Shown: one piece after another, positions 33,421-35,305 of the stretch
Position numbering within the stretch: the stretch's first letter is position 1
Layout: every line of letters starts with the position of its first letter
Assembly (NCBI RefSeq): GCF_000964465.1
Contig: NZ_BANH01000007.1
Coordinates: 1 to 48,577, forward strand
Direction of reading: 5' to 3'
From: Gluconobacter thailandicus F149-1 = NBRC 100600
Lineage (GTDB): Bacteria > Pseudomonadota > Alphaproteobacteria > Acetobacterales > Acetobacteraceae
DNA: 48,577 nucleotides
Program-made: the position numbers and the translations under genes
Notes under the pieces: generated by a model
The model's database searches: none
What the model was told of the DNA's origin: nothing
What the model saw: the letters and a program-made list of their open reading frames with translations, nothing else

Positions 33421-34116
33421 TCAAGGGCGCCGGGTAAATGTCCAGTAGAAGGGCTGTCTGCCTTCCCGGAAGGCTTTTGCCTCATATCGGGTTGGAGACC
33501 ATCCTTCGGGACGTTCCGTCTCCGGAGGGGGAGCGTCAAACAGATTCTGCTTGCCCATCACTTCGATCACCCAGTCCTGGTAAACAGGATGATCGCTTGC
33601 CACGCGCCAGATAGCACCAGGCTTGAGAACGCGATGAAGTTCCCGAAGGTTTTCCGGATGCACAAAGCGACGCTTTGCATGGCGTGATTTTGGCCATGGG
33701 TCTGGAAACATCAGATAGGCGCGGTCAAGGCAACCATCGGGCATATCCTTAAGCAGAAGACGGGCGTCTTCTGGCCAGATGCGGAAATGCTCGGGTGGCT
33801 GGGCTGTATCTTCCTGACCGTCTGGCACAAGGCGTGACATCAGGGAGCACAGGCCGTTCTCGAAGACCTCTGAGGCAATGTACCCGACATCCGGGTTCAT
33901 TTCAGACTGGGCCGCAGCATGTTCACCGCCGCCAAATCCGATTTCGAGAAAGACGCGCGAAACCGGCGAGGAAAACCCGGCAGTTGGGTTTTCCGCAGAT
34001 GCAAAAGTAAAGCGCGGCAGCGTTTCTTCAAGAAGATGCTGCTGCCTTGCCCGGAGCGGGTGGCCGCGCTGGCGGCCGTAGAGCCGCTCCGGCTGGGGTT
34101 TGAGAGACTGTGTCAG
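33421..34116 (-). CDS. trmB: tRNA (guanine-N7-)-methyltransferase, apparently CTG start
   Basis: TrmB methylates G46 of tRNA. Conserved parts are LEIGFGGGEH (SAM motif I), MFPDPWPKSRHAKRRFV (the family's signature) and HPVYQDWV. From the first in-frame ATG (33900) only 159 residues would be made and SAM motif I would be lost. The frame stays open upstream through LYGRQRGHPLRARQQHLLEE, a typical TrmB N-terminus, to a TGA at 34129-34131. Only five codons separate that stop from the conserved region, and the sole near-start is CTG at 34116-34114, giving 231 residues, the normal family length. The CTG lies four bases after the metK stop, so translation by coupling or re-initiation is likely. A sequencing or mutational change of ATG to CTG is the alternative. 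Confidence 0.85.
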   Translation of the reverse strand: MTQSLKPQPERLYGRQRGHPLRARQQHLLEETLPRFTFASAENPTAGFSSPVSRVFLEIGFGGGEHAAAQSEMNPDVGYIASEVFENGLCSLMSRLVPDGQEDTAQPPEHFRIWPEDARLLLKDMPDGCLDRAYLMFPDPWPKSRHAKRRFVHPENLRELHRVLKPGAIWRVASDHPVYQDWVIEVMGKQNLFDAPPPETERPEGWSPTRYEAKAFREGRQPFYWTFTRRP

Positions 34117-34120
34117 GGTC

Positions 34121-35305
34121 TTACCTGTTCAGTGCGTTGCGGAGGGTGTCAACCAGATCCGTCTGTTCCCAGGTGAAGTTGTCCAGAGCAGCATTCGGCA
34201 CGCGGCCGAAGTGACCATAGGCGGACGTCGGAACATAGATCGGGCGGTTCAGGCGCAGATGCTTGCGGATGCCGCGAGGCGACAGGTCCACAACTTCGTT
34301 AAGGAGCAGGCCGAGGCGTGCCTCGTCGATGTCCTTCCCTGTGCCGTCGAGGTCTACATAGACCGAAAGCGGCTTGGAAACGCCAATTGCGTAGCTGAGC
34401 TGGATCGTGCAGCGATCTGCAAGGCCAGCAGCAACAACGTTCTTGGCAAGGTAACGCGCAGCGTATGCAGCCGAGCGGTCAACCTTCGTGGGGTCCTTGC
34501 CGGAGAATGCGCCGCCGCCATGAGGGGCTGCACCGCCGTATGTGTCCACGATGATCTTACGACCTGTCAGACCAGCGTCACCATCCGGGCCACCAATGAC
34601 GAAGTTGCCGGTCGGGTTCACATAGAACTCGTCTTCCGGGCAGCTCCAGCCATTTGGCAGAACGTCATTGACGACACCGCGAAGCGTTTCGCGGATCGTG
34701 TTCTGGCTCATGCCTTCAGCGTGCTGCGTGGAAATCACGACAGACGTCACGCCAACCGGCTTGCCATCCACATAACGCAGTGTGACCTGGCTCTTCGCGT
34801 CCGGAAGAAGGCCTGCGCCGCGGGCGTCACCATTCTTGCGGTAGTCGCGGATACGCTCAAGAATCGTCTGGGCGTAGAATAGCGGAGCCGGCATCAGGTT
34901 TTCGGTTTCGCGTGTTGCGAAGCCGAACATGATGCCCTGATCGCCGGCGCCTTCGTCCTTGTCGCTGCCGCTGTCCACACCCTGGGCGATGTCAGCGGAC
35001 TGTGCGTGGAGGTAAGACGTGATCTCGGCATTCTTCCAGGAGAAACCTTCCTGGTCGTAGCCAATGTCCTTGATGGCCTCGCGTGCGCGGTCGATCAGCG
35101 TGTCTTCGACAGCCTTCGGGCCACGGACTTCACCGGCCAGGATGACACGGTTCGTCGTGACCAGCGTTTCACAGGCAACGCGGGCTTCTGGATCGGCTTC
35201 AAGATAAGCGTCCAGGACGGTGTCGGAGATACGGTCTGCCACCTTGTCGGGATGGCCCTCGGAAACAGATTCAGAGGTGAACAGGAAATCGCCGTGATTG
35301 CGCAC
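34121..35305 (-). CDS. metK: S-adenosylmethionine synthetase
   Basis: MetK (394 residues) makes SAM from methionine and [23 protein letters not shown] at the start, the ATP motif [13 protein letters not shown] and the P-loop-like [22 protein letters not shown] are complete. Usual family length. It heads the minus-strand unit metK-trmB, with trmB beginning four bases past its stop. Both enzymes belong to methyl transfer: SAM supply and tRNA methylation. The 5' region contains repeats described separately, and I do not recognise a known SAM riboswitch there. Confidence 0.98.

Follow-up and report, generated by a model that had tools for sequence, protein, structure and literature searches.

The metK–trmB locus raises the question of where translation of a housekeeping gene begins when its reading frame offers no usual start codon ahead of its cofactor-binding motif. 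In the window, by which we mean the whole 48,577-nt stretch of Gluconobacter thailandicus DNA that was analysed, both genes lie on the minus strand, with metK (methionine adenosyltransferase, 34121–35305) ending in a TAA stop at 34123–34121. The metK start given in the ORF listing is a GTG at 35303–35305. The trmB frame, encoding a tRNA (guanine-46-N7)-methyltransferase, is closed upstream by an in-frame TGA (34129–34131), and between this TGA and the SAM-binding motif I, LEIGFGGGEH (33919–33948), it contains no ATG, GTG, or TTG. The first in-frame ATG, codon 73 at 33898–33900, lies beyond the motif, and an ORF listing restricted to ATG, GTG, and TTG begins trmB there, at a length of only 159 amino acids. 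A sequence-only reading of this DNA had proposed that trmB starts at a CTG (34114–34116), four bases behind metK, and the geometry it described is borne out: the metK TAA is followed by a 4-nt spacer, GACC (34117–34120), and then by the CTG, from which the frame runs through 231 codons plus stop to 33421 (CDS 33421–34116). The TGA at 34131–34129 and the CTG at 34116–34114 are present as that reading had reported, no standard start intervenes before the conserved region, and a start at ATG 33900 would indeed cost the protein LEIGFGGGEH. The CTG had also been called the single near-cognate codon available; it stands as a plausible start but not as the single near-cognate codon, since an AAG at 34122–34120 is likewise one base removed from ATG. 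This AAG is missing from G. oxydans-type and Neokomagataea loci, in which the CTG is present, and CTG 34116–34114 is the only plausible trmB start after the in-frame TGA.

Comparison with known families was used to identify the two products. The trmB product matches Pfam PF02390 (Methyltransf_4) with 115.1 bits against a cut-off of 24 (E 3.1e-33), and it is similar to a solved TrmB structure, PDB 3dxx, which we take to be an E. coli-type enzyme, with the LEIGFG of motif I included in the alignment (E 3.2e-15). With the NCBIfam equivalog TIGR00091 it scores 79.7 bits, under the cut-off of 112.65, and the four NCBIfam models that it matches, all describing TrmB or PrmC/TrmB, are each matched below their own cut-offs. 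The metK product scores 479.3 bits with NCBIfam TIGR01034 (cut-off 309.4). In an alignment of TrmB proteins from 12 relatives, the motif I residues L57, E58, G60–E65, and H66 are invariant, and an N-terminal block, PERLYGRQRGHPLR, which precedes codon 73, is nearly so.

Other Gluconobacter loci had been named as the place where an ATG might be found at this codon; none carries one. trmB was found in all 26 genus genomes searched (the genus as coded in the genome collection seems to include Neokomagataea-like genomes), and in every one of them a CTG stands 12 codons ahead of YGR. In 24 of the 26 a stop closes the frame within 30 codons, while the remaining two loci (L020 and L022) have a GTG or TTG 35 codons before YGR, inside metK. 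In one genus genome (G022:C1; L026 and L027) trmB occupies two overlapping frames, broken or misread, and the CTG is still there. The same codon recurs in neighbouring genera. Among the named loci, which were drawn from a scan retaining the best 80 of 491 relatives, CTG is present in 30 of 30, representing five genera: it lies 12 codons before YGR in 19 Gluconobacter and 3 Neokomagataea loci, and 13 or 14 codons before YGR in 6 Asaia, 1 Swaminathania, and 1 Brytella. In 27 of these 30 the frame is closed and lacks ATG, GTG, or TTG within 40 codons. The others, G. morbifer, Swaminathania, and Brytella, have a frame that is open into metK, with an ATG, GTG, or TTG 23 to 35 codons before YGR, as do G015 (L022) and g26; Swaminathania and Brytella also contain a second CTG. 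Because these open frames hold standard starts, CTG is not the sole candidate in G. morbifer, G015, Swaminathania, Brytella, or g26.

How much the conservation of one leucine codon can say was gauged from the other invariant leucines of the two proteins. In the 24 loci of Gluconobacter and Neokomagataea that were compared, CTG fills the start column without exception, whereas none of the 14 other invariant-leucine codons of trmB, and 2 of the 27 in metK, are CTG throughout. As two metK codons behave in the same way, codon conservation alone is modest to moderate evidence, and it is the position that counts. At this position, the sister lineage of Bombella, Saccharibacter, and Parasaccharibacter has TTG in 12 of 14 named loci and GTG in the other 2, located 104–121 nt behind metK and in some cases with an extra GTG or ATG just upstream. 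Thus, the column behaves as a start-codon column. In a sample of the 28 best-matching loci from other families of the class, in which the anchor was absent or wrong for L206, L207, L217, and L218, all 24 validly anchored loci have an ATG, GTG, or TTG within 40 codons upstream.

These comparisons also bear on the other ways in which the locus might be read. Translation could begin at ATG 33900, the first standard start in the frame, in which case the true protein would have 159 residues; such a product lacks both motif I and the nearly invariant block that precedes codon 73. Moreover, over 34 loci the place of the next ATG, GTG, or TTG in trmB varies by species between codon 23 and codon 125, and none is shared. 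Codon 73, aligned by number, is ATG in just 6 of the 34 lineage loci, and in G. oxydans (L068) the first trmB ATG is codon 125. The ORF is under purifying selection from codon 2 onward: between the window and G. frateurii there are 32 synonymous codon differences and 1 non-synonymous difference in 230 codons, and dN/dS against the window is 0.01–0.09 in seven of nine comparisons, the other two having given no computable dS. This low ratio over the whole ORF argues against the downstream ATG, and we reject that start, which is not shared and loses the conserved N-terminal region, as highly improbable. A MetK–TrmB fusion, made through frameshifting or stop readthrough, is suggested by the abutting genes and by frames that coincide in the G. 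oxydans and Asaia types. However, the spacers between the metK stop and the CTG in the 30 named loci measure 4, 5, 6, 8, 9, 10, 15, 17, 28, or 29 nt, the trmB frame takes all three values relative to metK among close relatives, the metK stop is TAA in some relatives and TGA in others, and the codons between metK and the CTG are unconserved. A single base separates the spacer of N. thailandica from that of N. anthophila, and the CTG is kept in both. The variable spacer and frame, with the unconserved codons, argue against a fusion, which we reject as equally improbable, and also against a start upstream of the CTG. The window comes from a single draft assembly of 191 contigs, so an ATG misread as CTG, or a decaying gene, might be considered; given the CTG in all 26 genus genomes and an intact trmB ORF with low dN/dS, this is the least credible of the readings. 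Collectively, the invariance across the genus, the CTG in related genera, the column of CTG, TTG, and GTG, the variable spacer, and the lack of a shared downstream start strongly support the CTG start that the sequence-only reading had put forward.

A more serious competitor accepts the CTG but dispenses with metK, having 30S subunits bind independently at the trmB start. We consider this a genuine possibility, though the less favoured one. It draws on a GAGGT located 6 nt before the CTG in Asaia, on a weakly Shine-Dalgarno-like AGG (34124–34126, within the metK end) 7 nt before the CTG in the window, on the spacers of two species, which reach 29 nt, and on a locus (L148, not included in the tree described below) with a possible CTG start 118 nt from metK. 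CUG initiation complexes are, in addition, able to form, though weakly (PMC11497404). Against it stand the weak Shine-Dalgarno match in Gluconobacter and the uniformly short spacers of the 35 CTG rows considered below. In the window, the stretch upstream of the CTG gives a duplex energy of −4.6 kcal/mol, which 42% of shuffled sequences attain; shuffles equal the match in 42–52% of cases for window-type loci and in 91–94% for G. oxydans-type loci. Of the loci tested, those of Asaia and g23 alone have a clear GAGGT, which 1–3% of shuffles equal. A Shine-Dalgarno sequence as the whole explanation is therefore unsupported for Gluconobacter. As to spacing, in a quick MetK plus TrmB tree of 70 rows the spacer is at most 29 nt in 35 of 35 CTG rows and at most 30 nt in 16 of 31 rows with standard starts, the starts having been picked by our own rule and L148 standing outside this count. 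Counting kinship, which leaves 3 independent pairs in the 70-row tree, the association between CTG and short spacers is not significant. With four rows that have no clear start excluded from the count of changes, the tree implies at least eight changes between CTG and a standard start. The Gluconobacter-type CTG rows, g34 excepted, fall within one supported group of 31 rows, in which TTG, GTG, and ATG rows are interspersed.

We conclude with high confidence that Gluconobacter trmB is read from the CTG just behind metK. In this explanation metK and trmB would presumably share one transcript, and the initiator tRNA, which can pair weakly with CUG, would read the codon and insert formyl-methionine to give a 231-residue enzyme. 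Because CUG is a weak initiator, trmB expression is probably low, and it would be aided by ribosomes finishing metK nearby. Translational coupling to metK is plausible. The 4-nt spacer of the window is consistent with coupling, for which an overlap or a spacing of less than about 20 nt is expected, and termination-reinitiation, which the sequence-only reading had suggested, is compatible with the mostly short spacers. The spacers of G. cadivus and G. aidae, at 28 and 29 nt, do not fit; these are 2 of the 19 named Gluconobacter loci and 2 of the 30 named loci overall. Coupling has been described as strongest at overlaps, with a steep drop by about 20 nt in Haloferax gene pairs and by 14–38 nt in E. 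coli, so the 28–29-nt spacers exceed the range where coupling is nearly lost in other species (PMC10666635). The CTG does not appear to be a recent mutation; it is probably the ancestral start of the Gluconobacter–Neokomagataea–Asaia–Swaminathania–Brytella group, retained as the spacer changed.

The initiator tRNA offers little that is particular to the genus. An anticodon arm, TCAGGCTCATAACCTGA, with an A29–U41 pair was found in 14 of the 26 genus genomes (L193–L198 and others), and the pattern had no match in the genome of the window itself and 11 other genus genomes, perhaps because these drafts lack rRNA operons. ARAGORN called a tRNA-Met in two of the three loci tried. In a survey of the class, 54 of 96 genomes were matched and 42 gave no match; every listed copy in the matched genomes is of the A form, save one extra GGG/CCC copy, whose genome carries an A form as well. 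The idea that A29–U41 is a Gluconobacter specialty is therefore rejected, as it is spread over the class, and at best this pair is a permissive background for CUG.

A wider sampling of the family gives further candidates. From a set of 140 distinct family loci, which omits five whose anchor was not found (L153, L161, L165, L170, and L177) as well as L026 and L028, 50 have no ATG, GTG, or TTG over a span of 40 codons, and a CTG lies in that span in 49 of them. The exception, L149, was anchored wrongly and does have an ATG; in L164 (g21) the CTG that was counted falls inside metK. In 22 family loci the two genes overlap as CTGA, with a CTG in the trmB frame over the metK TGA, and 19 of the 22, including the Swaminathania-type loci L033 and L073, have no ATG, GTG, or TTG after the overlap and before the core. 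CTGA overlaps in other Acetobacteraceae genera may be trmB starts. However, 21 of the 22 have a metK that ends in CGC TGA, and because of this ending the CTG at the overlap arises automatically. L175 alone among the CTGA loci has a frame closed within 30 codons, and judged on its sequence the CTG there is the only good start candidate; in the remaining overlaps the trmB frame continues open into metK. The g34 loci (L126, L143, and L187, the first two apparently from one genome) likewise have a closed frame with CTG as the sole good candidate, here without an overlap. One could go further and suppose that trmB has started at CUG since early in the history of the Acetobacteraceae, that this start arose where trmB overlapped the end of metK as CTGA, and that it was kept since ribosomes finishing metK can initiate at CUG, which would link a methyltransferase to the enzyme supplying its cofactor. 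The A29–U41 pair that the initiator tRNA of Alphaproteobacteria has in its anticodon stem in place of G–C might also aid CUG relative to E. coli. We regard this extension as speculative and rather doubtful.

Several loci fall outside a simple rule, namely L148, L110, Acidomonas, and the g89 and g21 loci. The frame of L148 (G039:C103) is closed and has no ATG, GTG, or TTG, leaving only ACG or CTG, 118 nt from metK, and its genome (G039) is listed with 7% contamination. In Acidomonas (L095 and L050) there is no ATG, GTG, TTG, or CTG from the metK stop to the TrmB core, and one has to go back to a GTG within the last part of metK for the closest standard start. The trmB frame of L145, L158, and L188 reads GTA across the overlapped metK TAA stop, has no usual start after the overlap, and offers only a GTG, 24 codons before YGR and inside metK. 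L110 (Gluconacetobacter tumulisoli) has a CTG 23 codons before YGR, a separate possible CTG start, with ATG or GTG nearby in its relatives.

CTG starts as such are already known. In G. oxydans 621H, which belongs to the same genus as the organism of the window, CTG starts were counted in 22 of 973 protein-coding transcripts (2%) with leaders of at least 20 nt; these counts accompany a map of transcript starts, trmB and metK are absent from the main text, and the parts covered do not treat start conservation (PMC5756330). Ribosome profiling in Caulobacter crescentus, also an Alphaproteobacterium, assigned CTG to 0.7% of mapped starts, measured in one species and, in the parts covered, with nothing on the conservation of a single CTG across genera (PMC4117421). 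CUG accounts for 0.024% of bacterial start codons and, in earlier E. coli work cited by the same source, for 0.86% of AUG expression (PMC11497404). Reconstructed ancestral switches to CUG are similarly scarce, with 2 from 61,358 AUG, 1 from 5,080 GUG, and 1 from 2,468 UUG codons, or 4 of about 69,000 (PMC5622118). Because CTG starts have been counted before and switches to CUG are very rare, the trmB CUG is unusual yet of a known kind. What is new is a CTG start that is kept across genera, and apparently obligatory, in a housekeeping gene; among the matches listed in our literature search there was no report on the trmB start codon. A housekeeping gene retaining CUG across several genera shows that bacteria can stably favour this codon, or at least tolerate it, and trmB provides a natural case for testing whether CUG is made usable by coupling or by an initiator tRNA variant. 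There is also a practical consequence, seen in the ORF listing, in that gene finding confined to ATG, GTG, and TTG shortens trmB past its cofactor motif; gene callers may likewise truncate it, as the sequence-only reading had expected.

Conserved non-standard starts are familiar from infC and pcnB of E. coli, and, as in trmB, a rare start is kept there in a housekeeping gene. The rare start codon of infC serves control by IF3, and we know of no comparable IF3-like start-codon control for trmB. infC uses a rare start elsewhere, and it may also do so in L192 (G000:C173, positions 1465–1482), where GGAG is followed at a distance of 6 nt by an in-frame ATA and, five codons further on, by an ATG. 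Also comparable are NTGA stop–start overlaps and termination-reinitiation, which likewise concern co-directed genes at short or negative spacing (PMC12548453 and PMC10666635). Other Acetobacteraceae carry CTGA at the metK–trmB junction; in Gluconobacter, in contrast, the genes do not overlap, and the initiator would be CTG instead of ATG, GTG, or TTG.
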